From Trichosporon coremiiforme (taxonomy: Eukaryota > Basidiomycota > Tremellomycetes > Trichosporonales > Trichosporonaceae), in contig BCJJ01000011.1 of the NCBI GenBank assembly GCA_039545355.1, positions 808,642 through 872,641 of the forward strand: a stretch of 64,000 bases of DNA, written 5' to 3'. Under the pieces are notes generated by a model. That model did not search any database and was not told the origin of the DNA. It saw only the letters and a program-made list of their open reading frames with translations. Made by a program: the position numbers and the translations under genes. Each line of letters opens with the position of its first letter. Positions within the stretch are counted from its first letter, which is position 1. Positions 1 to 64,000 of this stretch are shown here, piece by piece.

Positions 1-805
1 TTCCAGCGCATGATCGGGATGGGCGGTGGCAACAACCAGCCAACTGCCAGCATGGACGATATCCTCAATCTCCTTAACAAGGTCTGGAAGTGTCTCAAGA
101 GCTACTACATGGAGGAGAGCGTCATGCAGCAGGTCGTTACTGAGCTTCTGAAGCTGATCGGCACAATCGCGTTCAACGACCTCATCATGCGCCGGAACTT
201 CTGCTCCTGGAAGAGAGGTGAGTACTTCGAATAGCCTTCTCACTAACGCTCAGCTATGCAAATCCAGTACAACATTACTCGCATTGAAGGTAAGGAGCCA
301 ACAGCAGTTCAGCGGCTGACGGCAGAATGGTGCAAGGCTCATGACATGCCTGAGGGTCTTCTTCAGCTTGAACACCTCATGCAGGCCACCAAGTTGCTCC
401 AGCTCAAGAAGGTACGCCCTGCATTTGAGCGAGACTAATGCGAACAGGCTTCAATGGGCGATATCGAGATCTTGTTCGACGTTTGTTGGATTCTCTCTCC
501 TTCTCAGATCCAGAAACTCATCTCGCAATATCACAATGCCGACTACGAAGCCCCTATCTCACCCGACATTCTCAAGGCCGTGGCCGCGCGCGTACGGCCA
601 GAGGATAAGAACGATCAGCTGCTCTTGCAGACGGAGCAGGACGAGGTTGGGCCGTACCAGATCCCTCCGCCGCGAGACATCGCCGGCCTTGAAACTTGTG
701 CGTTACGCGGCTGTCATCAAGAGCATTAGAAGCTGACAATCAACAGACGTTCCGGCCTGGCTTAACGTCCCTCTCATCAGGAGGCTCGCGACGTTCGTCG
801 CATAG
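1..805 (+). CDS. MYO2: Class V myosin heavy chain, C-terminal globular (DIL/cargo-binding) tail; 5' end outside window
   Basis: Actin-based motor that carries secretory vesicles and organelles to growth sites. Only the last 215 residues are present, joined from exons 1-217, 254-289, 326-411, 448-697 and 747-805. The four introns are 36 to 50 nt with GT-AG ends and CTGAC/CTAAC branch sites, and the exons sum to a whole number of codons. The translation reads as a dilute (DIL) domain: LNKVWKCLKSYY, NDLIMRRNFCSWKR, EWCKAHDMPEGLLQLEHLMQ, then the Q-motif region PSQIQKLISQYHNADYE and a C-terminus PAWLNVPLIRRLATFVA. The motor and IQ repeats must lie left of the window. MYO2 is a known member of the Cryptococcus MAT locus (established knowledge), which fits the other genes here. 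Confidence in family and splice model is high. Confidence 0.93.
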
Positions 806-1446
806 AGGGCCAGATGCGCCCATTCTCATAAGGTGTACCATGCTATGCAATATGCAATCGTATCGGATCCATATCTATGGTATCAACGTCGTCTGTTGCG
901 TTCACTATCAGCGCGATGGACTAAAGACTACCGCGTATATTCATGCGAGGTTGAAACTAATTCAATCGCTTCGTGGGAGCTATAATTAGTGCCAATAGCA
1001 GACCACGTCGCGGAAACGGAAGTGTCACGATCGTCATGAAGGCGAGCATAGTTGTAGTTGCGTGCTTCTGCAGTGTTTGGACGGGCTGTGCGAAGCGCTT
1101 CGCGGATATTCGCGCGGCGGATGTGTACCCCGAGACAGGTGGACAGAAAGCAATAAATGACGGCCGCTAGGCTGTAAAGTCAGCGGGTTCGGATTCGAGC
1201 TGGCCCACAAGAAGAACCCCGTAGCAACCGCGAAAAGTAGGAAACCCCCATCTGGAGTCATCATGGCAGGGTCATCGTTACGCTTTGGGTTGACGAAGAT
1301 GTGACAAAGACGAAGAGTTAAGGACTATACTGGTGGTGGTACAGATCGACGGCTCTGTCACGTGACGTCTAACCTCCACCCTCCAAAAAGTTGCTGATGA
1401 TGCTGAACTGCGGTGCTGCTTGCGTTCTGCCTCTTCGCATTCGACC
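806..1446. other. Intergenic region between MYO2 and TSR1
   Basis: About 640 bp without a supported gene. It holds the MYO2 3' UTR and the TSR1 promoter. Only short overlapping ORFs on both strands are seen, none with a recognisable domain. A GGTTCGGATTCGAG string near 1188 resembles a tRNA B box but no matching A box or foldable tRNA body is visible. Confidence 0.6.
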
Positions 1447-4276
1447 ATGGCACCTCAGGCGCATCATCACAGATCGACGCTCAAGCAGGTGTGTCTTTTC
1501 TAAGATTGCATGCGAGTTCTGACTCCAGAAAAACAAGTCTTTCAAATCCAAGCATGCTACGAAGGGGTCGTTGAAAGCAGCCGCCAAGGGTAAGTGGAGC
1601 AATCGAGGCTCGATCTGACAGCCTTAGGCAAAACAGCTTCTCTTGGTGTCTCTTCTCACTCTCGGAGCATAGAAGCTGGATCAAAGAGGGGCAGACTTCA
1701 TCAACAGGCTCAGAAACGTGACTCGAAGCAAAGGGCTGCTCGAGAGAGCGCCAAGTTCTTCTCTACGAGTTCTAGCGGAGGTGAGGTCTACAAACAGTCG
1801 CTTGGCTGACTTGCCAGGCAAGGTACCTCGCGTTATCTCCATCATTCCATTGCTTCCTTCCATTTCTACGGAGAAGTTCTACATCCAGTTACTCCATTCT
1901 CTGGATCTGTCCCCCCAGGAGATCGAGGAATTGTCGTCACGATACCAGCCGCATTGCTCCATCTTCGTGCCGGTCCCTAGATTCAAGACGAACCTCGTGG
2001 TAAATATTGTACCTGCACTGGATTTGTACGCCAGTCTGGATGTGGCTCTTGTCAGCGATGCTGTCCTGCTCCTGATGAGCAGCACAGACGAGGTCCAAGT
2101 AGAAGGCGAAGCGATTCTTCGTTCTCTGCAGGGACAGGCAGGAGGTGTCACCGTTCTGCCATGTGTTCAGGTGGGTGATTGAACATTCACAGCAGTCGCT
2201 CATGTCAGTTTCCTGAATCCCAAGGGCTGGACGCATCTGGACGGTCGTCCGTTCAGAAATCTCTGCTGTCCTTCACTCGGTACTTCTTCCCCAACGCTCA
2301 CAAGGTGTACTCAAATGACAACGCAAATGACGCTGCCTTACTTGCTCGTGCCATCTGCGAGGTGCAGCCTGCCAATATCGAACATTCGGAAGGCAGGTCT
2401 TGGCTTGTTGGGGAGGGCCGCGATTGTGTAGCCTGGGAGCCCAGTAGTTCCAACCCGAAATCGGGCGACGTGGGAACGCTGTATGTGACTGGGACGGTGC
2501 GCGGGGGAAAGATGAGCGCGGATCGTCTCGTCCACATCCCTGGCTATGGCGATTTTCAAGTCGAGAGCGTGAGTCCCCAAAAAGGCTAAACCTAACACCA
2601 GCTCATACACACCCCTCTTCAAGTCCGGGGACCTACCTCCTCAACTGGTGAAGCGCTGTCGACGCCCACGGAGTCGGCCGACGATCTTACAGCCAACAAT
2701 GTGCCTGATCTGCTTGCCAATGAGCAAACCTGGCCAACCGAGGAAGAGATGAACTCGGCGCCCGCTGCCCAAGGCGAGGCTATTGAAGCCCAGAAGCCCC
2801 GCGTCAAGCGTGTGCCTAAGGGAACCAGTGCTTACCAGGCAGCCTGGATCGTGGACGATGACGAGGGCGACGAAGTCGATGACGATGACGAATTTGACAG
2901 CGAGATGGGGTCAGACGACGGTGCGGATCAGGATTCGCCACACCACCGTGAGTCGTGTTGTCCCAATCTGTTCTGACAACAGTCTCCGAAGAGGAGGAAA
3001 TGGAGGAGATCGAGCTGGACTCTCGCGAGCAGGAGCATGACGATATGGCTCCCGAAGATGAAGAGGAGCAGTAAGTCTCGCGATGCTCACTGCGTGTGAT
3101 TGGTTTTAACGATCAGGTATGCAGCCTATCTGCGTGAGCGCGAGCGAGCTCAGAAGGAAGACATGGCTTTTCCGGACGAGATCGACACGCCCCGTCACAT
3201 CGCTGCTCGCACTCGCTTTCAGCGCTACCGCGGGCTGCGGAGCTTCAGAACCAGCCCATGGGATCCTTATGAGAACCTCCCATTAGAGTACGGCGAAATC
3301 TTCCAGTTCGAGAACTTCAAGGCGACGAAGCGCCGCGTCGAAGCCGAAGCGTCGGAGGATGGTGTGGAGGTGAGTCTCATTCACCTCTTATCTAACTTGC
3401 TCAGATTGGCACTCGCGTGACTCTGGTCATCCGAAATGTTCCGAAGACTATTCTCGCGCGTAATCCGTCCGCGCCCCTAATTGTGCACGGCCTCCTGCGG
3501 CACGAACATAAGCAGACCGTGTTGCACTTCGTTGTGCAACGTAACACCGAGTATTTGGAGCCTGTTCGAGCGAAGGTAGGTGTTCTCTCCGAGTTTATCA
3601 GGGATTATGTTGACCTTCAGGATCCGCTCGTGCTATGCGCCGGACCTCGGCGCTACCTCATCAACCCGCTTTTCTCGCAACACGTGCGAGGAGGCGGAAA
3701 GGGGGTAAACAATGTCCACAAGTCAGAGCGATTCCTTCGGCATGGCGCTGCCACAGTCGTGACCACGTTCGGACCGGTCTGCTTCGGCAAAGCTCCGTGT
3801 CTTCTCCTTCGTGAAGGTAACGGTGAGCACGTCAATTTTGGGGATGGTACGCTAACTGCAGCCTCTGTTCCGGACCTCGTTGCCACGGGCTCATTCATGT
3901 CCTCGGACCCTACGCGCATCATCGCTAAGCGCATCGTTCTCACCGGCCACCCGTACAAGGTACACAAGAAGACTGCGACCATCAGATACATGTTCTTCAA
4001 CCGTGACGACGTTGCGTACTTCCAATCTGTCGAACTCCATACTAAGTATGGTCGGACTGGGCATATCAAGGAAACCTTGGGAACGCACGGATACTTCAAG
4101 GCGCACTTCGATGGTCCCGTCCAACAGATGGACACCGTTTGCATGAACCTCTACAAGCGTCAATTCCCGAAGGTGAGTCTTGGTTTCGGTGGTGAGCTGA
4201 CAGCTAGCAATCAACTCCGCTCTTGCAGGAAGCGACGGGCAGTGTCCAAGGCGGCAGTGGAATGGACGTAGAGTGA
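1447..4276 (+). CDS. TSR1: 40S ribosome biogenesis protein TSR1 (BMS1/TSR1 family)
   Basis: Nucleolar/cytoplasmic factor that holds pre-40S particles during maturation; a GTPase-like fold without catalytic activity. Twelve exons (1447-1488, 1529-1589, 1628-1780, 1818-2170, 2209-2568, 2602-2947, 2983-3070, 3117-3369, 3405-3575, 3621-3816, 3862-4172, 4229-4276) give 793 residues, close to the family length. The start is fixed by the family N-terminus APQAHHHRSTLKQ followed by NKSFKSKHATKGSLK. The centre is acidic (DDDEGDEVDDDDEFD). The C-terminal domain has FQFENFKATKRR, DPLVLCAGPRRYLINPLFSQ, RGGGKG and GHPYKVHKKTATIRYMFF. Two introns (45 nt at 3576-3620, in frame; 45 nt at 3817-3861) would be read through by a naive ORF call. 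TSR1 rather than BMS1 because the length is under 800 and no P-loop is seen. It converges with STE11, 64 bp apart. Confidence 0.94.
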
Positions 4277-4340
4277 CCAGCAGTTCGCATGTACTATCTT
4301 AAAGTGATCGCATTCCTATCGTTACATGATATCATCAGTA

Positions 4341-7300
4341 CTAGACAACAGGTGGTAGGCCCGGCAAGGGATTCCTTCGAGCGGCAGCGACCGCATCCAT
4401 CGTGGCATTTGCCTGCTCGATGGACAAGGCTCCAGGGACTGCGGCAGCCTGCGCGGCGATGAAGGTATGTTCGAGCAGCGCCGAGGCCGTGGGTCGCAGG
4501 TCGTGATCGATCTCTAATGTGCGTTGCAGGAACTCTGCCGCGTCCGTGGAGATGTCACTGGGAGTGGCAGGTCGCGCCATTGAGCCGATCTGCCGTTAGG
4601 CGAGGAAGTCTAACAACAAGGACAAACTTACCCGGAAGAAGGCCTGCATTTGATCAAGCTCTGCCCAAGGATGGGTACCGGTCAACATTTCGACCACTAG
4701 GCAGCCGACGCTCCAAATGTCGGCTTTCGACGTGTAGATTGTCTGCTTCACCACTTCCGGTGCCATCCAGAAAACGGACCCCTGCAGTGAGGGGCGGTTA
4801 GCTCGCATTGCAATGCCAGCCATAAATTCTTCGGTAAGTTAGTGGTCGTTTACCAAAGGACTTACTATTCTCAGCTTTCTTCGAAATTCCGAAGTCAGAA
4901 ATCTTGATGCCCCCTTTGTTGTCGACGAGAATGTTTGCACCCTTAATGTCGCGATGAATAATGCCTCTCTCATGGAGATAGTTGAGACCAGTAAGGATTT
5001 GACGAACGAAGTTTCGGACGAGAGCCTCCTCGAACGCGCCATAATTGTTGAGCAGGGCGGCCACCGAGCCACCTGGGACATACTCCAGGAAAATGTACAA
5101 GTGATTCCCATCAGTTGCAGAGTCTAACCAGTTAGCAGCCTGCTGATTGTACGGTAAAACCCACCCAGGTATTGCACAATGTTCTCGTGCTGTAGCTCTT
5201 TGAGAAGCTCTATCTCTCTCTCAAGAGCTTGTACCATGTTTCTCTTCTTCTCTTCATTGCGAGCATCACCAGATGGGAGTTCCACCTGCTTGACTGCCAT
5301 CAGAAGACCTGATTGCGCGTCCATGCCCAAGAATACCGAGCCGAAGGAGCCCTGACCGATCAAAGCCCCTTTGATCCATTTGATCATTCGTCGAGCTGTA
5401 GTCAGTTTTAGCAGCTGGCGAGCTAGCGATCTACTTACAGCCAGTTGAAGTCAAGGCTCGCCCCTGATCCCTATCGTCGTCGTCACTTGTCGCAGAATCC
5501 TCCTCTTCGTCCTCAGAATCCTGGGAGGTGCTTGATTCATCATCACTGTCAGGAATGGAGATGACCGATGAAGACGCCGAAGCAAGAGAGGGGTCGGTGT
5601 CGAACATGTCTGCCGTGGCCATACTTGCTCGGCGGTTCTCAACCTCTGCTGTAATCTCATCCACGGTCAAGAGACTAGCCGTATCACTCTTATCTTTGTT
5701 CCGCTTCACAGACGAAATGACACTAATGCGGCTCAACGTGGACCCTGTGGAGCCTCTTCGACCCGGTCGCAAGGCCGGGCGCGCAGAAGCAGGCGCCGGT
5801 GAATACTCTTGCAGCGAATCGACCAGGCTCTCGCCTGTGGATTCGAATGGCGGAAGGAGTGGAGGATGACTGCCTACAGGAGCTCCGTTCTCGTCCTGTT
5901 CCGTAGAGGCTGGGCTTCGGGCAGTGCCATCTGGATGCGCGGTTTCAACTTCCTCGGGAATCACCGCCGGGGTGGTAGAAGACGACACCGTCCTCGTAGA
6001 TGGAGGGCGGGCTTTCCGATTGGGGCTGGCGACGTTCTCCAGGCTCGCCGATAGCGGGGATGCAGTTCCGAGCGCACCTCCCAAGGCAAGTCGATCTGCG
6101 GGCGCTTGAGAGAGGCGCATGCTCTGACGAACCGTTTTCTCCAAGTCTCGCTTACGCGCAGAAGGGAAGTACTCTGAGAGATGATTGGAGATGAGTTCAC
6201 TGGGAGGACGGTGGCCGAAGAAATTGTACATCCTCTTCGTCCGAGATGACACGTTGCCAGACGAAGACGTCCTCGACGTATTGACGGACGGAGATGTGTC
6301 AACGGCCCCAGGAACACCAAGTCCAGACATGATCGATACAGTACTGGCTCGGTTCATCTGCTTATTCGCTGTAGGTTTCGAAGCGCTGTCACGGCGGTCC
6401 TCTGCTTGCCTTCCTAGGCGAGGAACACCGTAATGGGACGGGGAATTGGGGGAACCCGGAGGCGGAGGAGCTTCGCCAAAGAAAATCTCCATGTTTTTGC
6501 GATTAGGCTGCTGGGTGACGCGTTTGATGAGAAGACCACGCTCCCTTACGATCGTGGAATCTATGCCACCGAGTTTGACGGAGCGCTGATCGTGACAAAT
6601 ATCAAGCAGAGCCGACTCAGATAACTGCTGATCTGCGGTACATTAGTGGATGATTGTCGCATTGCAGGCATAACAAGCTCTCACCTTCCTCCCCGCTTTC
6701 CTTCCGCGTAAATACACCCCAGCCGTCCCACTCCAGGCGGTCGCTGTCTCCCGAGTCCGAGTCAGGATTCCAGTTTGATCCTCCCTTGCCAAACTTCTTG
6801 AGAACCAGATCAAGGACGGCTAGACCACTTGTGCAATTAGATACGTTGACTGTTCTAGAGGTCCCATCCTCAGAGTTCACAAACTTGACCAAGTGACGCC
6901 ACAGGTCCTCCAACGGAATCGTGCGATGCTGACCACCCTCTCCCGGTAACGTTGTAGGCATGCCATTACGCGGTGGTGCGATTCGTAGCTTGTGAGGGTC
7001 AGAGTTGCCGGAGTCGTCCTTGCGGATGACATTGGCGAACGGATGCGGTTGGATGTTATCCCGGACAGGGGGATGAGTAGGGCTGACGGCCTTCCCACCG
7101 GCCAAGAAGTCCGCGCGAGCATCTCCGAATCGATGAACACCTTGCCTTTTGTCGGAATTCTTGGTCGCTAGGCCAATACTCGACCAAGGGTCGTCAGCCA
7201 CTGAAGCGGGGATGTCTCCCGATGTCGTCGCTCCATTCCTAATGTTGGCGTTGGGGTGAGCGTGAGCAGTCACGGGGCTTGGCGACCTTCTGATCTCACG

Positions 7301-8026
7301 AGTCGCGGGTGGACGTAAGGAAACGATTGGCTCCTGCGGGGGCAGGGGCGGCCGAGCACTCCCTGCCTCAGTCAGTGCCGAGACCGGCTTGGAAGGGGCC
7401 GACTTGGGGGTCACTGATCTCGAATTTGGTGACCCGCCAGACGTCGACCCCTCGACGGCAGATGACAGGGGATTTGGCCGTTGCAAATTCAGAGGCGGTG
7501 GTCGCGAGGATGCGAGTCTCTTGGAGAAAAGAGCAGTGGCGAGGCGCTTCTGAACCTGAGAGCTGCGAGCATCACTCGATTGAACGGGGCTACCGTCAAC
7601 GGCGGGGACGAGCGTTGGAAGCATCCGGGCGCCTAGGATGGCCGAGGTTGGTGTTCGCGCTGCGCGCTTGCGGAGGTCTCTCACACCTCCCAGTAGCTTC
7701 ACACGATCTCCAATTTTGCTGATACCGATTTCCTTGAGGCTGGACATATCGAGGTCCAAAAGGACCTTGCCATCGATGTCGTTCCGATTGAATAGCTCGA
7801 TGTATTGGTCGCACTTGTACATACTGAGGAATGACGCAATCTCAGCGTCTCCCCACAATCGCACATGCGCGCCAAATGTTTGGCCGGACGGCGCCTTCAG
7901 AAAGGGCGGAGTCGCGGGTCGATGCTGATTGTTTCGTGTCGACCCATCTACACTTGTCTTCGCGAACCCTTCGGAAGTGGGTGTTGTTGAGGATTCATCA
8001 TCGTGATGAGCAGTTGCAGACTGCAT
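4341..8026 (-). CDS. STE11: MAP kinase kinase kinase of the pheromone pathway (SAM-RA-kinase)
   Basis: Six exons on the minus strand (8026-6685, 6632-5439, 5395-5165, 5123-4866, 4828-4632, 4589-4341) total 3471 nt and encode 1156 residues. Domain order: SAM domain at about 55-120 ([20 protein letters not shown] through GDRVKLL), Ras-association-like region at about 370-500 split by the first intron, a long Ser/Pro-rich linker, then the kinase from about 850: glycine loop [16 protein letters not shown] lysine, HRDIKGAN catalytic loop, [19 protein letters not shown]. The SAM/RA/kinase order is diagnostic of Ste11, which phosphorylates the MAPKK Ste7 below the PAK kinase Ste20. STE11 is a MAT-resident gene in Cryptococcus. 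The start ATG at 8026 opens the SAM exon; 790 bp separate it from the 3' end of IKS1. Confidence is high for family; the exact RA borders are inferred. Confidence 0.95.
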
Positions 8027-8816
8027 GACGAGCAGCTCGGTCCACGGGAGGGAGGATAAAGGGTCCGCCCGTCAAGCTCAAGCCATCAGAAGACGGCTTC
8101 GCATCAGCACCTGCGCAAGATTGCAAACCGTGAAAGTCTTACCGCAGCCACCGACTTGGTGCCAGGATGTTGCGTCCGGTTGCGCCGACCCGAAATGGGA
8201 GTGCGAAGAGATTTGCGTGAGTGTTAGCCAGACGCGAGGGAAAGGTCGATTCGGAAGAAGGGGGTTGGGGGTTGAGGGGGAGGATCTGACAAAGAGAACG
8301 TGGATGAAATGATAAGAGAAGAAGCGTGATCGAGAGAAGGGCGAGACGTGATGGCGTGGGGTGGCATCGGTCACTACAGGGCTATCGTTGTAGAGGCATA
8401 TGGTGGCGACGGACAGCGGACTGGTCTCCAGCCAGGCACTACCGCGCAGAGGAGCGGATGCCGGACAGGGTCTTGGTTACGGATTGCCTAATGCCTAAAT
8501 GCCCAACCTGGATAGCGGCCTCGAGCCCTGACCCTGTGTGTCCCTCCACCCGTGCCACCCAGCGTTCAGTGGTGGGCGGCCATTGTACACTGATACAAGG
8601 AGGCAGCACACTGGCTCACTACCGGCCTGGAGCTCAGGGCCGATTCGGGTTCAAACGCTCACCGCACGCGCCGCGTCGGCACGCGCTCAGCCTTGCTTCC
8701 GCCGCCATCAGCTCATCGGGCCCTACAGGTCTCCGCCTCATGGATGCATCTCCCAACAAACACATAGATACAAAAGCGTTTTGTACATAGACATCATTCT
8801 GTTCGATACACTGCCA
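8027..8816. other. STE11 promoter / IKS1 3' flank
   Basis: Roughly 790 bp between the STE11 start and the IKS1 stop, both genes on the minus strand. It should contain the STE11 promoter and the IKS1 3' UTR. No conserved coding region is seen; the several 90-150 codon ORFs are low-information and lack matching introns or domains. Confidence 0.55.
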
Positions 8817-10961
8817 TCACGCGTTTAGCTTGGCCGAGACCAACGCGGACACATGTATTAAGAGCAGCCCGCCACTGAGCGCCATGGACGCCGAATGTGC
8901 GGGGATGTCGACGACCGCAACAATCACGAGACATAGGACGACGGCTGGTGGAAGCTGGACCCCAAGGACGTTCGGTTGCAGAGACATGATCTTAACAGTG
9001 AGCACCAATGCAGCCGATGGACGAACCTTTAGTGTGAACAGCGCCAACCACGCATATTTGCTCCATTCCACCCCTTCGATCTCCGAAGGAACAGATGGTG
9101 CAACTCTCACTTCCGGATAACCGGAAGGGGATGGTAGCGCAAGTAGAGATCGGACGGGAGAACGATCAGCGGCTCGTTTCTCTTCGTCAGCTCAGTCGCC
9201 TTGATTACTTACCTCTTGCCGCTTCTTGTTTTTGAACTTGTTCTTCCAGAGACTCCCGAGCTTGTCTCCGAAACTGTTACTCTGGAATCGAGAGAGTGCA
9301 AGCTTGACACGCTCTGCATTTGGTCGCTGCTCAGGCGATAGATCGAGAAGTCGTTCAAGCAGGAGAAGCAGTGCTCGAGGGATGTGTCTTCTCTCACAAA
9401 CTTCGATGACCTCTGGCGTGGGGTGGAATCCACTGTAGCGAATGATCTCATCGTGTAAAGCGGCCAGATCTTCGGAGGCTCGGTACGGCAGTTTCAAGAA
9501 GAGCATCTTGTGTAAGATCATGCCTGCAAAGTCAGTGATTGTGTCTCGCTTTGCCCTACCAAGTGACCACATGTCAGCATGGGAGTCAGATGGCCTCCAG
9601 TCTCCATTTGCGTCCATAACAATGGTTTCGGGAGCCTACAGAGTCAGTGAGTCGACCAACCGACAACACACCATGTACTCCAGGGTTCCAGTGTGTCCCG
9701 TTCGTTGACGGCGGCCACGGATCATCTCCTCGGACGTTCCAAAATCAGAAAGCATTGCTTTAGGGCTATCCGGTTAGTACTTAGCACAGCAATCACCCTG
9801 GTACTCACGTCACCTCTCCTTCCTCCCAGTGCAGCAAAACGTTGGAGCATTTGAGGTCAAGATGCAAAATCGAGTTCGAGTGCTGTTTCGTCAACGTAGC
9901 AGACCTAAACAACCCACAAGGAATGCTAGACCCTCTACGACGTCTCCAAATAGCTTCAGCACTTCTTCCAATCCAAGAAGAAGAACACCTCTGCTCTCCC
10001 CCCTCGCTCGTCCTACTCCACTCTGGCGACGTCGTTTGAACGCCTTGATCCTCTCGGCCTTTGGCAAGTGTTCGAAATCGTCGTTCAGCGCCAATCCACC
10101 TGCACTCTCCGTGTCTACCGAAGCAGCGTGACTCCGATTAATGAGGAAAGCATCGAGATTTCCCGCAGACGCATACATCATGAGCACGTGCAGTGCCAGG
10201 ATGGGAGGGCTGAACGCCGAAAACTGAGTCTCATCCACCCATGAATGATAATAGGGAATGATGTTCGGATGGCGGAGTGCTTCCAGTAGTCTAACCTCTC
10301 GGAGCATCCGCACCAGATACGTCTTTGACGTCCCCACGGCGATCTTCTTGACTGCGTAGGTCCCTTTACTGTTAGCGCCGACTCCCGTTATCACCCACCT
10401 AAAGCATTGCCTCCTATTACATGTGTAGCCAGATACACACTGCCTTCAGCCCCAATACCGAGGCGAGCCTCCTCTTTGAAAAACCTGCGATAATATCCCA
10501 TTGCGGGGAGGTCACTAACGTCAATCATGTCATCAGCATCCGAAGTGGATATTGGCTCAAGCGGGGTCGCAGCTTCTCCGTTGCTCTCAGCGTCGATTGG
10601 AGTTCCAGGCTGACTGAAGCCATGGGCACGCTCAAGAACGCGGAAGTAGCTGGAGTCACCGCGACCCAAAGTCCTGGAGGGGCGAGCTGTGGGAGTGATC
10701 ACGGGGGACCATGGCCGATGGCAAAGCGGACATTCTCTTGGTTTCCCTTCGTCGTGCTCTTCGGCATCGTCCGGTTCGATAGAGCCACTGGTGGTCGCTC
10801 CTTCACGGTCTGGGTGAGGTACAACTTGAATCGCATGCGAAGGAGGGTGATAGACAATGAGTTGGTGGGGGGTTTCGCTGTTGGTCAGGAGAGCTGAGAT
10901 AGAAATGCACATACCCAATCGGCGTCCACGTGTGATTATACCCCGTCGGCGGCGGTTCCAT
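8817..10961 (-). CDS. IKS1: IKS1-type serine/threonine protein kinase with C-terminal membrane segments
   Basis: Eight exons (10961-10915, 10877-10399, 10363-9918, 9882-9809, 9765-9672, 9635-9560, 9523-9213, 9179-8817) total 1890 nt, 629 residues. The N-terminus has a short beta-rich part (HQLIVYHPPSHAIQ) and a CPLCHRPW cysteine pair. The kinase starts at about 150: YYRRFFKEEARLGIGAEGSV, YAVKKIAVG, REVRLLEALRHPNIIPYYH, then LHLDLKCSNVLL, SDFGTSEE and EYMAPETI. The catalytic loop is HLD instead of HRD. The last exon carries hydrophobic stretches (PAVVLCLVIVAVV and MALSGGLLLIHVSALV) that look like membrane helices. FFKEE-GxGAEGSV is characteristic of Iks1, also a MAT-locus gene in Cryptococcus. 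Its cellular role is poorly known. Start chosen at MEPPPTGYN because the first intron then splices in phase. Divergent from VPS26 with 180 bp between. Confidence 0.9.
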
Positions 10962-11141
10962 TGCTTTGACAATGGTAGTCGTTGAGATGGGTTGTGATTG
11001 TTGCGGAATGTATCTGATATCTGGCCGGCCTTGCACATGACGTATCCACACGGACTCATTACGTAACCACTTGCTGCGCCAGATCCGCCACCTGGTCGTC
11101 ATCGTCCGTAGTTGTTGATACCATCCAGTTACACATCGACC

Positions 11142-12296
11142 ATGGCATCTTTCTTCGGCTTTGCTTCGGCTCCGGTGGACGTTGAAATTCGGTTGAACGG
11201 GGAGGATGACCGGAAGCAAGTAGAGGCAAAGGGAGATCAAGACAAGAAAGAGCTTTGCCCTGTGTTCTACGATGGGGAGAGTGTAGAAGGGAAGGTGCGT
11301 TACCGTTGGACAAAGGTCTTGACCGCCGTTCACACTGACTCAAGGTTATCGTCCGCGTAAAGGATGGGAAGAAGTTCCAGCACGATGGTATCCGTATTGA
11401 ACTCGTAGGCTCGATCGGTACGTCGCTTAATCAGAGAGTGGCCCTAGTGTAAGCTTCGCGGAGGAGCTTACACCGCAGAACTATTCTATGATCGAGGTAA
11501 CCGTTACGATTTCGTGTCCTTGAGCCAAGAACTTGCGGGGCCTGGAGAAATGAGACAAGCCCAGACGTTCGATTTCACCTTCAAGAACGTTGAGAAGCAA
11601 TACGAGAGCTACTCGGGAATAAACGTCAAGCTGAGGTACAAAACTCGGTTTGACCATGCTGACACACCAGGTATTTCATCCGGGTGACCCTTATGCGCCG
11701 CATCGGGGAGGTGACGAAGGAGCGAGACTTCTGGGTGCACTCGTACCACATGCCCCCGAAAACGAACACCAGTGAGAAGATGGAAGTCGGCATAGAAGAC
11801 TGTCTTCATATCGAATTCGAGTTCAACAAACCAAAGTCAGTCCGCTGCCTGTACCACAGCTGACCACCGTAGGTACCACTTGAAGGATGTCATCGTCGGC
11901 AAAGTTTACTTTCTCCTGGTTAGGATTAAGATCAAGCATATGGAACTCTCCATCATTCGCCGCGAAACGACCGGCGCCGCACCGAATCTGTATAACGAGT
12001 CCGAGACCATCACAAAGTTCGAGATCATGGACGGAGCTCCTGTTCGAGGGGAGACCATTCCTATCCGGCTGTTTTTGGGCGGCTTCGAACTCACACCGAC
12101 ATTCCGCGATGTCAACAAGAAGTTCTCCACACGATACTTCCTCAGTTTGGTTCTTATCGACGAAGAGAACAGGCGGTACTTCAAGCAGCAGGAGATCACG
12201 TTGTACCGTATCCCGTGAGTCGTCGAACGGAGCATCACTAACAGAAAGGGAGAACTGAGAGTGTTCCGGTCACTGGGCGTCAACCTAGGCAGGTAG
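11142..12296 (+). CDS. VPS26: Retromer subunit VPS26
   Basis: Arrestin-fold subunit of the retromer cargo-selective complex (Vps26-Vps29-Vps35), which retrieves receptors from endosomes to the Golgi. Six exons (11142-11294, 11345-11417, 11479-11635, 11671-11835, 11873-12214, 12245-12296) give 313 residues, the usual size. Family landmarks: MASFFGFA start, ELFYDRGNRYDFVSL, ELAGPGEM, YESYSGINVKLRYF, EVGIEDCLHIEFEFNK, YHLKDVIVGKVYF, IKHMELSIIRRE, DGAPVRGETIPIRLFL, YFLSLVLIDEENRRYFKQQEI. The last exon (52 nt) adds a short tail ending in VNLGR. The start is unambiguous. All junctions are GT-AG and in phase. Confidence 0.96.
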
Positions 12297-12654
12297 TTGC
12301 ATTCCCATGTTATCTATGGAGAACACAGACAAACCAAACGCGCGCAGCCGACATCGTACCCGCGGGTGGTTCGGAGAAGGGGGGGGAGGGGAAGGTTGCG
12401 TTAAATGTAGGCATCGGTTTATGTAAATAGATCCTAGGGCATGTGCTGGTTTCGTCTAGGGTCAGAGTGCGGGGTCCTCAGATTCGTGCAACCTACGCGG
12501 GGAAGACTACAGTCAGTTTCCCGAAAGATTACGTAATATAGCGTGGAACCGTCTGAGCCCATCCCGTGTCGTGTCCATCGTCATAACGAGCGCCGCTCCG
12601 TTGTTGACAAGACACTATCACTAGCTGCAAGAGAGTGCCTTCGTTGGTGTCAAG
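12297..12654. other. Intergenic region VPS26 to Munc13-like gene
   Basis: 358 bp with the VPS26 3' UTR and the promoter of the next gene. A run GGGGGGAGGGG occurs near 12381. No gene seen. Confidence 0.6.
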
Positions 12655-43805: not shown

Positions 43806-44027
43806 GACGGGCGATGTTGTTGCACGAGATGATGCTCGAGGTAGCTCGTGATCAGCGAAATCAACAGTGAAGTCAGTGGCGATTGCCAGGAACGGCTGGG
43901 TTAGACGCTTATCACTGGCCACGCCACCTCATTGTTTCGGCAGTCTCAAGGTCCATCCGTCACCCAAAAGTTCGGCTGTTGGCCGAGAAACACTACTACA
44001 CCGACTCACCACCACCAACGCTACTCG

Positions 44028-45923: not shown

Positions 45924-46209
45924 GACCACTCATCATAGCATAGCATTGTACCATGCATTAGGCATTGCAAGTCGAGTCAGCAGTAATGCACCACTTAGCC
46001 TCGGTCTCGACTCGTTTCAGCTGCGCGTCAATGTCGCGGATGCGCGACTCAAGCACTAAACGCAAAGTTCAGGACACGTCCCTCCAGGCACAAAATGAGG
46101 GGCTCGGTTAAGGCCGGATTTCAACACTCGTTGACAAGACATGTTCAAGCTGCCAAAGAAGTCAAAGCGACGGCGCAGAGCTTGATAACCCTCTCATCTC
46201 TTAAAAACA

Positions 46210-47967: not shown

Positions 47968-48557
47968 TAGACTCTTGCTTCATCTATAGACTGGATTTTA
48001 TGCATGCAGGGGACCATCTCTAGACTCTTGGTTGGGATGACTGCAGAACGGCGGCAATAATGAGTGCAGAGAGTCATATCAGAGTCAATCTAGGCACGAC
48101 TTTCGACTCGTCGAGGTAGGCCGGTCGGCCGGTCAATAGTTACATAAGCCCTTTGCCGAGATGGAAGAGATGCGGCATTTAAGCCAATTAGGACTGGCTT
48201 ATTGGGAGGATTAGAAAAACGCGGGGAACCTGACGTTGCCAATTGGGGGGCTATAGCCGGCCCAAGCGAGCGTGCAAAACACGTGACTTGGCAAGGCTCG
48301 AGTAATCACCTTCCGGAGCTGCAGCCGCTGCAGACGGCCTCGGCGAACTCGCTCGGCCTCGAGCACAACTTTCTCTCCTCCCTCCGTCTTAGGTCCTCAA
48401 CCTTTCCCTCTTAATCCCCCCCTCCAAAACCCCCCAACTCGTACACAAGAAGCGTACCCCTCAACCGTAGACGGCAGTAGGACCACCGCAATCTCCCCGA
48501 CCTTCTCTCTTCTTGTGTCCACTTCTTTTCCGACCCGCAAACCCTAGAAAACTTAAC
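47968..48557. other. SES1 3' flank and NFS1 promoter
   Basis: 590 bp. The right half is the NFS1 promoter and leader, with CCAAT boxes and an E-box (listed separately) and a C/T-rich leader (CCTCCCTCCGTC-like) before the start codon. No gene seen. Confidence 0.6.
48184..48285 (+). promoter_or_regulatory. Cluster of CCAAT/ATTGG boxes and a CACGTG E-box upstream of NFS1
   Basis: CCAAT at 48184-48188 and 48239-48243, the reverse form ATTGG at 48201-48205 and 48242-48246, and a palindromic CACGTG at 48280-48285. They lie 270 to 375 bp before the NFS1 start codon. The fungal HAP complex, with the iron regulator HapX, binds CCAAT and controls iron-related genes; because NFS1 makes Fe-S clusters, such control is plausible but inferred. 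Confidence 0.45.
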
Positions 48558-51949: not shown

Positions 51950-54900
51950 TTACTCGGCAAGAACGTCTTCAATAATCTTATTAATGGTGTCCTTGCGAGA
52001 CGCCAAGTTGCGGCCGTACTCGGTCTCGAGCTGCTTGCGCACGCCCTTCTTGGTGAGCGTGTCGAGGTCGGCACCCTGGCAGATGCGGCGAATGCTGGCC
52101 TCGAGCTGCATCTCCGTGGGGCCGTCGTCCTGCGGCAGGCCGTAATTCGAGTTGACGGGTTGCAGAGGCGGCTGCCCGTAGAAGGAGCTCGCGTACATGC
52201 TGTTGTTGTCGCCGGGGTGGAAGCTGCCGGTGTCGCCCTCACGGTCGTAGAACGTACCGCGCGGGGCACGCTCGTAGTAGGACTCGTTGCGGGACCCGGC
52301 GCGCAAGTTCTCCTGCGAGGCGGTAGGACCGTGGCTGTAGAAAGAAGACGGCGGGTAGACGCTTCCACGGCCGGCCTGCGACTGTCCGTACTGGGACTGT
52401 CCGCCGTACTGCGACTGTCCGCCGGACTGGGACTGGTTGTACATGCTGGGAGCGCCGTAGATGGATCCGCCGTCGCCCATGTAGTCGCTCTTCTGCGGGG
52501 CGGCCCAGGTGTCGAGCGAGTGGTTTGACTCCTGGTCCCACAGCTCGTTCTCGTAGTCGTTCCACGACTTGAGCGGGATCTGCTTCGGGTCGAACTTGCC
52601 CTCGTCGTGAATGACGACCTTCTTACCCTTCTCTCCGACCACAAGACGAGTGGAACCCCAAGAGAAGTCGTCCATGCGCCAAAAGGAGTAGAGGGGCAGG
52701 TAGAGCGAGAAGAAGGGAATGGCGAGGATGTAGAAGACCATCCAGGCCACCATGTCCCAGCGCATACGGAAGATGAAGACGAGGGCCTGAAGACCGTAGA
52801 CCGCCGCCAACATTGCGATGGACAGGATCGGGATATTACTGCCACTCTTCACGATGATGTAGATGAGGTAGACAATGTAACCGACGGTGACGGGAGCGAT
52901 AATGGTCGAGATAAGGTCGATCAGGACGACGAAGCGCATCGAGAAACAACAGAAACCGCACATGTTCTCCTGGAAGATGAGCTCGGCCATGTTGTGAACG
53001 GTCGAGTTGATCCAACGACGACGCTGGGACATGAGAACCTTGCCGTCATCGGGAACGACAGTCTGCGCGCGAGCGTCACGGACGAACTTCGTCTTATATG
53101 TCGGGAAGTGCTTGAGGATCAGGGTCGTGAGGTAACGGTCTTCACCAAGGTGGAGAAGGTTCTTCAAGTGCAAAGTGTCGACACGGTTCTCAGAGTAGTC
53201 ATGGATGATCTGGTTCGATATAAAGAGCGGCTTGCGGGTGTCCGGGGTACGAAGGCGGTACATGGTGAAACAACCGGGCAAACAGGTGATGGAACCGAAC
53301 AGGTTCTCGAAAGCCTTGGCCAAGTGGTGAGAGATGAAGTACTCGTAGACCTGGGACATGGTAACGACGGACTGTTTGGCGTTGGTGATGGACGTCTCAC
53401 CACAGATACCGACGATCTTCTTGTCGTGCATGCAGGCCGAGACCAGGCGATTGAGCGATAACTCATCAACAGTTGTATCGGCATCGACCATGAACAGATA
53501 TTCGTAGAAGCTCGGGTTGACACCAATGACGTTCTTGATTTGGTGGTAGATCTCCAGTTCAAGGGGATTCATGGGTGAGTTGAAGTGAACCTTGATGTTA
53601 GCTCCGCCCACGCACAAATCGTCAACTCACCTTGTTCAGGAAGTGCATCAGGAGCATCTGCGAGTCACGCTTACCACGGTTACCTGGCTTGGGGCGCTCA
53701 GAGGGCTTGCCAACCTTGACGACGATGAGGTAGGGACAAACGTGACCAGCGCACTCGTAAAGACCAGAGTACACCTTGCCCATGTTGTGCTGCTTGCTTC
53801 CCTCGCCAAGCGACAGGAAGGAGAGCGGCTCCGGGTCAAGGTTGGGATCGACACCGAGAATGTCGCACACGATGGCCGGGGTAGGCTTCTCATTTCCGAA
53901 ACCCTTGATGTTACCGTCGCAGATGACGAAGATGAGCTTGCGCTTGTCGTCGTAACGGAGCTTGACGAGCGAGTCGATGGTCCTGCGGAGCGATTCCTCG
54001 CCCTCAGTGTAACAGGGGACCTGGCAAATGACGAACTTGTCGTGGTTTTCGGGCGCACGGGAGGGGCCGAAGTGAATAGCAGCCAAGAACTTGAAAGCGA
54101 TAATGGCGACCATGACACAAGAGAGCGCAAGAAGGATGTAGGTCGAGAACAGACACTGAGGCGAGTCACGGGTGTCGAGCTTGCCAACGATGAAGAGCCA
54201 GCGAAGACAGTCGGACTGCATGTTCCAAACCTCGTCTCCAAGAGCCTTGCGGACGTTGTCGTGCCAGAGCTTGGAAACGTCCTTTCCAGAGTTCTGCAGG
54301 AACATCTGCTGAACCTGGTCGGCCATGAAAGCACGCTGGGCGTACGCCGACGTAGCAGCCTCACTGTTCTCATCGAGGTCCTTCGGGAACTGGACACCAC
54401 CACCACCCTGGTTGTAGTAGGTAGTCAGGTCGTAGACGTAACCATCGATGATACCGACCACCTCCTTGTTGTCGGCTTTGTGCTTCAGGTCCTTCTTCGT
54501 GAAGCCCATCCAGCCCTTGCGGTAGCCTCCACCAAGGGTCATCATCTGCTCACGGTACCAGTCGGGACGGAAGTCGGTCGAGGTGTGCGAGGCACGGAAG
54601 TCGTGGTACTGCGAGAACGGGTTGGTCTGGTTTGTGGCGTCCAGAGTGATGTAGGGCGAGATACCATTAGGATTGGTGCCACTACAAACGGCGGACACCT
54701 GGACGGGGAAAAGGCTGCTTGCGTCGACACCCGAGTAAGGCTGCATGGTCTTGGAGTCGACGATCGGGACGATACGCTGGTGCGTACCAAGGAAAGACGT
54801 AAAGTCGAAGACTTCTCCGCGGATAGCCGTGTAAGCACTCTTGGGGTTCTCCTTGTAGTTATGTCCATTCAGCTCGGCCTGTGTGAAGACATGCTGGGTA

Positions 54901-57900
54901 GGGCAGATGACAGGAGCGAGACCGGCGATGACGAAAATCGTGCAGCCACAGATGAACCAGATGATGAGGTTGATCGCGAGCTTCTCGCGCCAGGCCTGTC
55001 GAATGTCCTGGCGCTTCATGCGGCCAAGTCGACTGAGAAGGAAGTCTGGAATCCACCAGGTGAGTAGGCGACACAGAAGCACCCAGCGGCGACGCGCCGG
55101 CGACTCCTTGTACTCCTCTTGCACCTCGTTATCCTCAGGAAGCTCGTCGAGAACATCCTTCTCGCCGCGCGTTTTCTCCATGTCGTGGAACATGTTGCGC
55201 GAAGGGGCGTACGCGTCGGTTCCGGCGACAGATTGCGAGTCTCCGAAGGCGCTCGTGGCCTGGCTAGGGGCGAAACCACGCGATTCGTCATCGGGCTCTG
55301 AAGACGGATAGTGAGGTGCAGGTGCCGCGTTAGCCACCAGAGGAAGTGCAGCGGTAGAATCGTTACGAGCAAAATTGCGCTCTTGGTGGAAGTCGAACAT
55401 GGGCTCGGGCTCGGGTGTGTGCGAACGGTGACCGGGCGCGAAATGGTCGTCCTTGTCGGCCGGTCCAGCCGCGAGGTGCTCGGGCATCTCGAGTCCGTCA
55501 GACTCACGTAACCTGTCCTCGAAACGATGGAAGGTGGCGTGAGACAGGAACACGCGGCTGGATCCAACGAGCATGTGGTGGTCGTCGAGCTGAAGAACAC
55601 GCTTCAGGTCGCGGATACGATCAGCAGTGGTGCCCTGGTTGCCGATAGCACGCTCAGCAAACTCGTCGTAATACCTGTCCGCAAACTCCTGGTGCGTCAT
55701 GCGAACCTCAAAGTCTGATGAACGCAAGCGCTGGCTGATCTCCGTGAGACCCAGACTGCGGATCTGCGCCTTCACCGAGCGAGTCTCGACTTGAGCTGGA
55801 AGTTGGGAGTCGTTTGGTCGCAAACAGAACACGAACCAGGGCTGGATCTGATCGAACGAGGCAAAGAGTCCCGAGAGCGCCTGCCACAACTGTCCAGCCA
55901 CACAGTGCAGCTGGGTGCCAGCGTTGCCCTCGTCGTTGCCTCCTCCTACCTCCGCGTCTTCGCCCTCGGTTTCCTGGACGGCACGCAGTCGAGATCCAGC
56001 ACGCTTCCGACGAGTCGAAGGAGCACGCATGGGCTTAACGGGCTGTTGGGCTGCGACAATGGTGTCCTCGTTGCGAGGGTGCATCTGCGTGGCAATCGAT
56101 CGCGAGGAAAAGAGAGTTCGGATGAAAGGGTTGTTAGATCCTTGAGCGTCCGGTACGTGAGTAGGACCGGTCGCGGACCCGCGGAGGAGACGGAGGATGT
56201 CGGCGCTGGTTTCATTGGCGTTGCGGTCAGTGAATCCCTCGACACTGTAGGTCACGGGGCCGCCGTAGTGGTTGACGGTGAAGGAAGCTGAGCCCGTGCG
56301 ATCCATGTTACCGACCGCGAAGGACGAATGCCCAGTGTAGCGCTTCGCCATGGCGTCGAGCATCTGGTTGTCCGTCCTCTTCTTCTTGCTCTGCTCGTCC
56401 GCAATGGCGATGAGACCCGTCTTGGAGTCCGTAAGCATCTTAAGGCACTCCGTGTTGTCGAAGTAGGGAATACGGTCGAGAGGCATTTTGTCCGCAGCCG
56501 CTTCCGCCAGTGGAGCCTCGTGGATGCGTTGCAGGATCCAGTTGTGCTGCTTCTCAGCTGCAAAGTTGAAGCAGAACTGGTCGATCGAGTTGATACCAAG
56601 AGTCGGGCCAGCATTGTTTTGCTGCCCGGGAAGATCAAGAATCGCGATGAAGGAGCCGAAGGAGTCCTTGCAGAGCTTCTGGTTAAGGTGCTCATTGAGC
56701 CACGAGAAGAGGAGCGAGTACAGAGTACGCGCAAGCTCATCTCGGACAGACTCAGCGCCCTCGACATCGAGGAACGTTGTACACACCTCCTTACGAACGA
56801 GAAGCGTCTTGAACGAGAAGATCTCGGCGAGGGCGTTCTCATGGACACCGAGAAACTCAGCAACCGTGGAGAGAACGTCCTCATTCAAAACAAGAGCACC
56901 CTCGTGCAAGGCATCATCTCCAGAGAACTGCAGGTTACCGATATGCAGGATACACGCGAGAAGCTGGCAGACCTGAGCGACAAGTCGGTTCGACATTCCA
57001 ACGGCGCGGAAAGCCTGCTTCAGCTGGCGGAAGCGTTCGCGGTCGGTTGCACCAGTCCTGCGGGCGCGGCACTGGAGGTAGTGGTAGTCGCCCTCGTTTC
57101 CTAGCCTCAAGTGCTGGCGCTCCTCACCATCGATGCCGGCACAGAGGTAGTAAAAGACATGGAAATTGCGCTCGCCGCTAGCCGGAACCTGGCTCACTCG
57201 GGATCGCTCAAGGTAGTATTCAATCGTCTTTACACCCTCGAGACGTCCGCGGTCCGTGAACTGCAGCTCGGTGTAGTTTCCGTATCGCGAGGCGTTGTCA
57301 TTGTGAACGGTGTGGGCGTTTCCGAAAGACTCGAGGATGAACTGAGCTCGTCAGCCGAATTGTTATGCTCATGCTTACCTCTGCATTCGCGATCTGGTTT
57401 CCGACCTTGTAGCCCTTCTTCCCATGGGGCGCGACGGAGACCTCGGAAACGGCTTTGATAGCCAATCGACGCATTTCCGACTTGCCAGAACCAGTGGCAC
57501 CGCTGAGGAGGGTTAGCCAGGTCCAGACCCTGTTCACGTCCAGCGAAACGACAACCGGGGCGGCGGCTCTCAGGCCACAACGGCGGCGTTCACACCAGAC
57601 CACTCGCAAACTCACCTCATGAGCATGATCTGGTCTTGGCCTGTCCTTCGCATGTTGTAGTACGCATTGAGCGTCGTTCGGAAAATGTGTGGTCCAAGGG
57701 ACTCTTTGCCGCCGGGCTGACCGACGATATCGTCACCTGCTGACTGGAAATACTCCTTGACATAGTCATGAAGCGATGCGTCGCTGTTAACGGGCAGCGC
57801 GGTGAGAGGATTCATGGAGACAAGCGCCGAGTCGGACACGGCAGTGTAGGGTTGAGAGGTCACATAGCGCTCGCGAAGTGAGGCGATGATCGTGTCCTCG

Positions 57901-61360: not shown

Positions 61361-61737
61361 CTGGTATCCTGTCTGCAAAAAAGGTGGGACGAAGAATTGG
61401 TCGACGTGTTGCCGGAGCGCACCGAGGACGCTGGGGTACCACGCCACTTTCAATCGCGGTATCAGGTGTGGGCGTTGGTCTGGCGACGAAGAACACGATG
61501 GGCGGTGGAACGACTAAGGTGGCGGGTGGGGTTGTTGGTATCGAATCATTAAACTGGGGAATCTGGTTTACACAGAAAGACGAAAGAAGATAAGCAAGTC
61601 AAGGTTCGTTTAAACAACCCAAGATTTGTCGCCGGTGGCCGGTGGGGCTGGCGTCAAGATGAAGACCGTGATTTGGGCCGAGTCGCTAAACGAGTCGGCA
61701 AGAGTTGGGTGAGGAGGATGTGTGCCAGCGAGGAACC

Positions 61738-64000
61738 TCACATGGGAGGAGGCTGCTGTTGCCAGCTGTTGTTCGGGTCAACGGCTTGGTCGCCGTGGTA
61801 CTCGTCCTCGGCCTTGGCGACCATGGGAGCGCCGTTGACGTCGACACCGCTATTCCACTGTGCCTGCTGTGGCGGGTAGTACTCACCGCCCTGCTGGCCG
61901 TCCACCGCCGCAGGCTCAGAGTAGACGTAGCCCTGCGTGCCCGACACGTTTGGCATCGAGTTGACCATGCCGCTCGGGGCCGGGGCAGGAGGGGGACCCA
62001 TCGAGCCGTAGTTGTATGAGCCACCGCCACCGTGTGGTGTCAGAGAGCGGTAGCGCATTGGCTGCTGGGGCGGTGTGAACGACGGTCCGACGGAGGAGAC
62101 GCTCGGCGCGTTCCACGCATTGGGCGGGGGCATCGACAGCCAGTCGGGCGGCACTGTCGTGGAGCGCTGCGGCGCCTGCATGCCGCCGTAGTACATGTTG
62201 TACTGTGCGTTCGGGCTTACAAATGTCAGCGCATTGCCACAAGGTGTTTCATGTTTCAACACGGGGATTTTTCACCGCCCTGTCGTAGTATCTCAACTCA
62301 CTCAACGGGGACATGTGACATCATGCCATCAGTCGGCGCTGGTGATTGCGTCGGCCAGCGGCGGCCAAGATAAGGCGGTGCGCTAAGCCGCGAGTCCTCG
62401 ACCGTCTCGCTGCTCGAACGTGGTGGCTCGTCCTTGCGGTGCAGGCGTAAGTGTTGCAGCAGGTTGTCCTGGCGACTGAAGGCGCGCGAACAAAGCTTGC
62501 AAGCGAACGGACGCTCCTGCGTGTGCGTCCGGATGTGGCGCTTCAGGTGCTCCAAGCGCTTGAACGGTCTGCGGCAGAACTCGAAGACGCAGACGAACGA
62601 CTTCTCCTCGGTGGCGCCGACGTGCGCGGCTTGGGGGGCAGCTGTCGAGGCGGTGCTGCTGTTGGCAGCATCGGCTCCTGGTGCCGGTGAGTCACGAACA
62701 GAGTCCGTCTTGCGCTTCTTCTCGTCACCGCCGACCGTGGAGACCGCCGTTCCGTCGCGCTTGGCCCTCTCCTCATCATCCTCAGGGGCCACCGACTTTG
62801 AAGGGGATGAACGCTTCGAGCGCGTACGCTTGCGCTTATACGCTGAACTTCCCTCAAACATCGTCACGGTGAACTGGGGTAATCCCCCTGGCCCCGTCTG
62901 GTACTGGTCGGCGGTCGGCTGAAAAAAATCAGGAACCGGTCTGCCTGTGTTGGGATCGATGGCGCCGACACGGCCAGTCCACATGCTCTGCTCGACCGAG
63001 CCGTCCATGGGACGTCCGTCGTAGGTCATGCTGGGGTCCATGCTCGACTGCCTCGATCCCTCCGGACCCATACCTCCCGCCATCATGTGAGCAGCATTGG
63101 GAGCAATGCGTGCCTGCAGAGGGTAGACCTGGTCCTGAGATAGCGTCAGCGTCTGTGCAAACAGGATATCGTTATCGCGAGGCACTAACTAGAATAGCCG
63201 CCTCCATTCCACGATTGGTGCCCATAAACTGCTCGTAGAGACCACGGCGCGGGTCATACTTGAAGCTGCGGGCGGGCTCGCCAACGACGACCGATGTCGG
63301 CTCCTGACCAGCCTTCTCGCGCTTCAAGTCGCGCTCAAGAGCATCAAGGAAGAGACGGTCATGCGGGACAGAGAACCAGTAGAAGACCTTCTGCTTCTTC
63401 TGGGTACGGATGCACCCGTTGCGGAACAGGAAGTCAAGGAAAGCAGACCTGTAGTGTCAGCTAAAGTGTCCCAACTGTGTCTTGTAATCAGAATCTGAAA
63501 CTCACTTTGGCTCCTCGAGACAAGCATCAACACCAGGCTTAAGGTTGCGGAGGTCGGAGAAGACACCCTCCTCCCACTTTTTGGTGTGCTTCACGGGGCG
63601 ACCGAACGCCTCGAAACGGAAAAGAAGTGCGCGGACTGGATTTGGTGAGCTAACGTTCCTCAGCCAGCCAAACTCAAAACTCACCGATGTCAGTGCCCGT
63701 GATATGATAAAGGCCGTTCCAGAGCACACATGCAACGTCCTCGCCGTTCGGGAGTCGGAACTTGGAGAGATCAGGAAGATGCTGCATGTCAGTCCCATTT
63801 CCGTGAGCAGCAACTCACGCTCTGAGGAAGCGTAGACCACTTCGTGGGAGCGGTAGCAAGGAACTGTGATGTCAGCAACCCTGATGATGAGCGTCACTTA
63901 CGAAAAGCAATCTGCAAAGCAACTCGACGCGAGCCGTCTCCGAGTCAGTCAGACGCCGTGGAACGACGTCCGCGGGGGGCGGAAGCGGGTAGAGAATGGC
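61738..64000 (-). CDS. STE12: Pheromone-response transcription factor STE12 (STE homeodomain-like + C2H2 fingers); 5' end outside window
   Basis: Seven exons in the window (64000-63902, 63863-63819, 63781-63685, 63635-63506, 63448-63190, 63152-62302, 62215-61738) total 1959 nt, 652 residues, and stay in phase throughout. The STE DNA-binding region comes first: [124 protein letters not shown] linker with a basic [11 protein letters not shown] stretch leads to two C2H2 fingers, [23 protein letters not shown] and the next [21 protein letters not shown] (each shown in part). The STE-plus-fingers form is normal for basidiomycete Ste12. It is a MAT-resident gene in Cryptococcus and the end point of the Ste20-Ste11 cascade, though it is partly dispensable there. 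Confidence 0.95.

Follow-up and report, generated by a model that had tools for sequence, protein, structure and literature searches.

In the Trichosporonales the homeodomain (HD) and pheromone/receptor (P/R) genes belong to one fused mating-type (MAT) locus, in which HD and P/R lie ~50-55 kb apart. It has two alleles, A1 (STE3-alpha and SXI2) and A2 (STE3a and SXI1), and Sun et al. report these canonical combinations in all but four strains (PMC6730849). Among their hybrids, Trichosporon coremiiforme JCM2938 carries A1 and A2, and T. ovoides A1 and A1 (PMC6730849). Here we analyze a stretch of 64,000 nucleotides of T. coremiiforme (assembly GCA_039545355.1, contig BCJJ01000011.1, C11 below, positions 808642-872641), called the window, from a genome of 42.04 Mb in 134 contigs; negative coordinates denote positions left of the window on C11. 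The window holds the P/R half of a fused HD and P/R mating-type locus such as is known from the Trichosporonales. Both the MAT system and the hybrids have been described (PMC6730849) and the locus itself is already known; what we add is a measurement of MAT divergence against that of the flanks.

With other fused MAT loci of the Trichosporonales, this one shares HD and P/R genes on one contig, one HD and one pheromone gene per allele, STE11, STE20, and MYO2 inside with STE12 nearby but outside, a large inversion, and low GC; with JCM2938 it shares the presence of two alleles in one hybrid (PMC6730849). Common to it and the MAT locus of pathogenic Cryptococcus are STE3, the pheromone gene (MF), STE20, STE11, STE12, and MYO2, as well as the fusion of HD and P/R with a single HD gene. 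In Cryptococcus, however, SXI1 accompanies STE3-alpha, each mating type has several pheromone copies, and the locus is more rearranged (PMC6730849, PMC12510652). The P/R locus of Kwoniella likewise groups STE3, MF, STE20, REI1, DBP10, UBP6, and a C2-domain protein (PMC12510652). It differs in that STE12 and UBP6 lie inside P/R there, whereas here they are outside the diverged block (PMC12510652). Kwoniella also differs in being mostly tetrapolar, with P/R unfused to HD.

We consider it very probable that C11 carries the A1 allele (STE3-alpha and SXI2) and a second contig, C23, the opposite A2 allele (STE3a and SXI1), that the genome is that of an interspecies hybrid, and that the block parted before the parental species split.

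Two Alleles of a Fused Locus

An HD2 homeodomain gene, SXI2, lies ~26 kb left of the window at C11:781921-782674 (window -26720 to -25967; PF00046, E value 5.7e-5). Both alleles are directly observed: a profile search of the contigs gave a second set of genomic STE3 matches on C23, and the sole genomic match to Homeobox_KN is also on C23, 47 kb from the STE3 gene there, and is HD1, that is SXI1 (PF05920). HD2 was seen only on C11 and HD1 only on C23, giving one HD gene per allele; this count draws on reading frames too, as a genome-wide PF00046 search matched neither MAT HD gene and missed the intron-split one of C11. The spacing between HD and receptor genes is ~47 kb on C11 and likewise on C23, each on one contig. 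Each of the two fetched regions has, at matching places, one CAAX frame of the PVNQE type. The pheromone precursors share MAY.NEPVNQE and then diverge, ending in CVIA (C11) and CIII (C23).

In SXI2, the sole plausible helix III intron found joins GLSSRQ to FQNKRNR, and the tryptophan of the WFxNxR motif would then be absent. No TGG was seen ahead of the TTT, whether by the splices tried or when the sequence was read by eye. An assembly error, odd splicing, or a real loss may account for the missing tryptophan.

The two alleles were compared by blastn over 164 kb of C11 and 160 kb of C23. A single inversion of ~44 kb was directly visible, window -23959..20372 matching C23rel 48488..4441 in minus-strand pieces, and the MAT-adjacent flanks are collinear. 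No second inversion between the C11 and C23 alleles was seen by blastn. At the inversion edge, a ferric-reductase-like gene (PF08030, PF08022) adjoins SXI2 on C11 (window -25.2 to -23.4 kb) and STE3 on C23 (C23rel 47.6-49.7 kb). By exon, the two copies share 40-79% identity, mostly increasing away from the breakpoint. For the piece that was searched against the genome, the top match elsewhere was the C23 copy (43%; next 34%). Low identity combined with this top rank makes the two copies look like very old alleles.

The STE3 proteins of C11 and C23 are 30% identical and fall into separate deep clades. As a query, the C23 receptor matched 62 proteins. In a tree of 31 rows, which holds no named alpha receptor and was midpoint-rooted for drawing only, it lies in a clade of 20 rows (support 100/97) together with receptors of the C. 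gattii complex strains CBS10090 and CA1873, of Kwoniella (K. mangrovensis CBS10435, K. pini, and K. shivajii), and of Cutaneotrichosporon. The three Kwoniella receptors are from P/R a2; CBS10090 and CA1873 are MATa (PMC4556806). Since its STE3 groups with MATa and P/R a2 receptors and it carries SXI1, C23 is, on these sequence grounds, A2 (STE3a and SXI1). The C11 receptor grouped separately, alongside six unnamed fragments that include one with a very long branch. Combining SXI2 with the other receptor type, C11 would be A1, with STE3-alpha assigned by exclusion only.

Two records met in this comparison deserve mention. Cryptococcus sp. DSM 104549, which is in the C23 STE3 clade, was considered as the alpha-type Cryptococcus sp. 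3 and rejected, the only strain of that species being CMW60451. The STE3 sequence of Vanrija albida (P0025) is annotated in the public record as pre-60S factor rei1, probably through a mix-up of neighbouring gene models.

The genome looks like that of an interspecies hybrid, judging from its duplicated genes. Of the three RNA polymerase large-subunit genes, two are paired with a copy on another contig, and the kinesin matches suggested several pairs. Five homeolog pairs were compared (four kinesins and one polymerase), and in four of them the copies differ, with 88-95% DNA identity and synonymous divergence (dS) of 0.24-0.54. Exons outside MAT show 94.5% amino-acid identity between copies (5.5% difference). 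The amino-acid difference given for the subgenomes is 7% in T. coremiiforme and 17% in T. ovoides (PMC6642101), and both genomes are listed at 42 Mb (PMC12204505). The fifth pair (kinesins at C8:825000-826900 and C22:791500-793400, the latter close to the contig end) shows no difference across 1896 bp; this may reflect loss of heterozygosity, gene conversion, or a copy duplicated in the assembly.

Divergence of the MAT Haplotypes Relative to the Flanks

Exon pairs spanning window -48 to 104 kb were used to measure divergence, those at -27.4..26.5 kb being counted as inside MAT. dS was calculated by the Nei-Gojobori method with Jukes-Cantor correction, in exon frames picked by a low ratio of nonsynonymous to synonymous differences per site (pN/pS) and not by RNA. 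Exons of fewer than 50 codons, with pN/pS of at least 0.25, or with stops were excluded before the dS statistics; this filter is expected to raise the outside dS and hence to work against our claim. The elevation is a direct observation: pooled dS is 0.921 inside MAT (53 exons, 7232 codons) versus 0.450 outside (45 exons, 11234 codons), and in a circular-shift test the difference was reached by none of 97 shifts. Fourfold sites gave 0.66 inside MAT versus 0.39 outside. The Jukes-Cantor distance of non-coding DNA is 0.27 in the inversion and, in the flank blocks from left to right, 0.17, 0.23, 0.15, 0.17, 0.13, and 0.18, while the alignable non-coding fraction is 0.67 in the inversion versus 0.82-0.97 in the flank blocks.

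On C11 the MAT block extends from ~-27.4 kb to +26.5 kb in window coordinates, ~54 kb. Across its right border, dS drops from 0.88 (22-26 kb) to 0.30 (26-30 kb) and the GC content of third codon positions (GC3) rises from 0.63 to 0.78; total GC is 0.55 in MAT versus 0.58-0.61 in the flank blocks. The MAT share of the window is thus only ~1-26.5 kb, and the remaining 37 kb on the right, STE12 included, is ordinary flank. An earlier note on this DNA, made from the sequence alone, had extended the MAT region over positions 1-64000. We rejected this extent, as divergence right of 26.5 kb is flank-like: dS and GC3 reach flank levels at 26.4-28.5 kb, and on the other side the locus continues left to the homeodomain gene at -26.7 kb. 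The suppression of recombination that the note suggested, as in the Trichosporonales, is supported by the two MAT haplotypes of one genome and not by gene order.

Along the inversion, dS falls to its minimum of 0.79 toward the middle and reaches 1.02-1.17 at the right edge; at the left edge one exon (71 codons) passed the filter and is saturated. This profile resembles the suspension-bridge pattern of Sun et al. (PMC6730849). They compared strains of V. humicola, with only moderate elevation, whereas here MAT-wide divergence above the homeolog baseline was measured (PMC6730849). Because the flanks date the parental split and MAT dS exceeds flank dS, A1 and A2 most likely parted earlier than the species, and recombination between them probably stopped before the parental species split.

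In basidiomycete mating each allele encodes a single farnesylated pheromone and a single receptor, which responds to the pheromone of the opposite allele; after cell fusion, the HD1 (SXI1) and HD2 (SXI2) proteins pair to launch the sexual programme. In T. coremiiforme, the 44-kb inversion that lies between HD and STE3 would be an obstacle to crossing-over, and the whole 54-kb block would thereby have diverged largely as a unit, ahead of the parental species split. From the two alleles we infer pheromone specificity, HD pairing, and a hybrid that would have arisen through a mating of opposite types, with the STE3-alpha of C11 taken by exclusion.

How far the split between the alleles extends beyond Trichosporon was examined with STE11, for which nine Tremellomycete kinases were compared with both alleles at the 67 columns where the alleles differ. 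The STE11 of C. oleaginosum (A2) matches C11 in 9 of these columns and C23 in 8. Over all nine STE11-like kinases, agreement ranges from 5-10 columns with C11 and from 8-22 with C23, seven leaning to C23 and two to C11 by one column. The lean to C23 is uninformative on mating type because outgroups of other genera lean likewise. None of the best 120 of 265 matches in the STE11 search was close, the top one reaching 65% across 72% of the query, and no named one among them came from Trichosporon. For the two genes examined, STE3 and STE11, the gene-tree comparison proposed in the earlier note has a divided outcome: a deep split, with clustering by mating type across genera, for STE3, and no sign of it for STE11 at the depth of Cutaneotrichosporon. 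Among the genes tested by Sun et al., deep allele splits were found only in STE3, which fits the null result for STE11 here (PMC6730849). Within Trichosporon, we lean cautiously toward the view that the whole 54-kb A1/A2 block, beyond STE3 alone, is a trans-specific supergene whose edge is older at the inversion breakpoint, the place where the reductase is almost as mating-type-specific as STE3. If this is true, the hybrid keeps two haplotypes that allow each stratum to be dated.

Alternative Explanations

The elevated dS in MAT could arise because codon bias is weaker, or mutation faster, in a region of low GC, with A1 and A2 no older than the species split. GC3 is indeed 0.62-0.64 in the MAT core versus 0.73-0.78 in most of the flank, and the proportion of synonymous differences (pS) declines with GC3 (slope -0.50 ± 0.21). 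In a weighted regression that includes GC3, however, the MAT effect on pS is retained (0.126 ± 0.035), and the excess persists in the GC3 bins 0.62-0.70 and 0.70-0.76. The contrast in non-coding DNA is also clear in five of six flank comparisons. GC3 accounts for part, but not all, of the excess, and we regard this explanation as unlikely. Several observations nevertheless weigh against an early parting of the alleles. Outside exons with GC3 of 0.62-0.70 have dS 0.53 versus 0.88 inside, so that lower GC3 could partly raise MAT dS, and just 8 of the 45 outside exons have GC3 below 0.70. The flank block beside the border has a non-coding distance of 0.23, making the contrast there less than sharp, and some exons of the far right flank attain dS 0.85-0.97. 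Other points run counter to the assignment of alleles and to the hybrid: the search with C11 STE3 gave six matches, all unnamed and with no named STE3-alpha among them; one inversion is seen here, whereas Sun et al. speak of two between alleles (PMC6730849); the RNA polymerase large-subunit gene at C3:1210651-1211532 has no partner among the matches found, and several kinesin matches are without an evident one.

The receptor types might instead be swapped, the contigs then carrying recombined alleles A1*/A2* (STE3-alpha with SXI1, STE3a with SXI2) as in Cutaneotrichosporon mucoides. The C23 receptor has the proline of a PxPWH motif that is absent in C11 STE3, and the S3 Fig legend of Sun et al. 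mentions a conserved N-terminal proline in alpha-group receptors, missing in a-type ones (PMC6730849). Yet the two MATa and three Kwoniella a2 receptors with which C23 STE3 clusters all have the same PxPWH, and the proline of the figure may be another one. In addition, STE12 and STE3 are 40 kb apart here, as against 400-750 kb or separate scaffolds in Cutaneotrichosporon (PMC6730849). A swap seems to us quite improbable. We give still less credence to the idea that the loci stem from an ordinary heterozygous diploid, as its two alleles, or from two co-assembled strains, although opposite mating types on collinear contigs would fit it and the assembly by itself is compatible with a strain mixture. 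A difference of 5.5% in amino acids and dS 0.45 outside MAT, together with 5-12% DNA difference in four of the five other pairs, is a species-level distance, and the 5.5% is near the 7% given for T. coremiiforme subgenomes (PMC6642101). An interspecies hybrid with canonical A1 and A2 alleles remains our reading.

Gene Content of the Window

The gene content was read directly from the window and is listed with its evidence in Table 1. The Tremellomycete P/R region seen in the earlier note was confirmed, with STE3, the CAAX pheromone precursor, STE20, and STE11 found by profile or reading frame. The joined exons of STE11 match STE11-like kinases of Cutaneotrichosporon and Kwoniella. Other names given in the note hold in part. 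STE12 is present, with its 5' end running beyond the window (one exon pair reaches 64066), but lies outside MAT. MYO2 is represented by its 3' end: the DIL piece at 442-705 scores E 2.5e-4 and 21.6 bits, below the curated cut-off of 24, and the frames upstream of the window start resemble class V myosin as judged by eye. The large gene with a myosin head at 51.9-57.3 kb was tried as MYO2 and rejected, the combination of Myosin_head, Cyt-b5, and Chitin_synth_2 making it a chitin synthase. For IKS1 our own tests support a protein kinase, no further than the kinase domain. Among the housekeeping genes, the TSR1/BMS1 family, VPS26, PRP4, seryl-tRNA-synthetase-type, and NFS1-like genes were matched, and REI1, DBP10, and UBP6 at the family level (C2H2, DEAD-box, and UCH). 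That such interleaved genes mark an expanded locus, as the note proposed, does not follow: STE20, DBP10, REI1, the C2-domain protein, and UBP6 belong to the P/R locus of Kwoniella as well (PMC12510652), and UBP6, PRP4, SES1, NFS1, and STE12 lie outside the diverged block.

Table 1. Features of the window, in window coordinates.
Feature	Position	Strand	Evidence and remarks
MYO2 (class V myosin), 3' end	1..705	+	DIL piece and upstream reading frames; remainder left of window to ~-4.8 kb
Window portion of 44-kb inverted block	1..20372		blastn against C23
TSR1 (TSR1/BMS1 family, ribosome biogenesis), inside MAT	1673..4268	+	PF04950, E 1.5e-85; exons via homeolog comparison
STE11, mitogen-activated protein kinase kinase kinase	4344..8071	-	SAM, sub-threshold Ras-binding match, kinase
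Protein kinase, IKS1 by the earlier note's call and published gene content	8820..10445	-	Pkinase pieces; kinase 9195-10445
VPS26	11112..12215	+	PF03643 in 3 of 3 exons tested
C2-domain protein	12765..16681	+	PF00168, E 1.2e-10, in 1 of 3 frames tested
STE20 (PAK kinase)	18062..20287	+	PBD, E 2.4e-9, and Pkinase
Receptor segment, inversion edge to REI1-like gene	20372..22180		Aligned fraction 0.00 against other allele at DNA level
STE3 receptor of the non-a type (taken as STE3-alpha), open frame intact	20642..21937	-	PF02076 at 20.9-21.8 kb, E 7.2e-66; tail intact
REI1-like zinc-finger protein, collinear yet highly diverged	21941..23361	-	zf-C2H2_2, E 3.1e-34; dS 0.60-1.19
DEAD-box helicase (DBP10 by the earlier note's call), highly diverged	23653..25999	+	DEAD and Helicase_C; dS 0.53-1.05
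CAAX pheromone precursor, 26 amino acids, ends CVIA	26400..26480	-	Reading frame
Right MAT border (inferred)	26500..28545		Between pheromone gene (26.4 kb) and UBP6 (28.5 kb); shift in dS and GC3
UBP6-like deubiquitinase, flank	28545..29775	-	UCH; dS 0.27-0.38
PRP4 splicing factor, flank	42173..43900	-	PF08799 and WD40
Seryl-tRNA synthetase (seryl-tRNA-synthetase-type core), flank	46906..47964	+	Profile match; main exon dS 0.23
NFS1-like cysteine desulfurase (aminotransferase), flank	48787..50274	+	Profile match; main exon dS 0.28
Chitin synthase with myosin motor, two long frames, flank	51953..57350	-	Myosin_head, Cyt-b5, Chitin_synth_2
STE12, outside MAT	61741..64000	-	PF02200 in 2 of 2 exons tested, and C2H2; exon dS 0.08-0.46

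Significance

Leaving aside the supplements of Sun et al. on hybrids, a search of titles and opening lines of abstracts gave no publication on MAT-versus-flank divergence between the homeologs of Trichosporon hybrids, and none on a ferric reductase as a mating-type-specific gene. With ancient splits in STE3 only and moderate divergence in one species, Sun et al. left the age of the recombination block open (PMC6730849). A hybrid with both alleles is a built-in yardstick, by which the synonymous divergence of MAT is ~2x that of its neighbours. If same-type comparisons between species agree, the MAT locus of the Trichosporonales would be a supergene of intermediate age, and natural hybrids would be a general tool for dating such regions.

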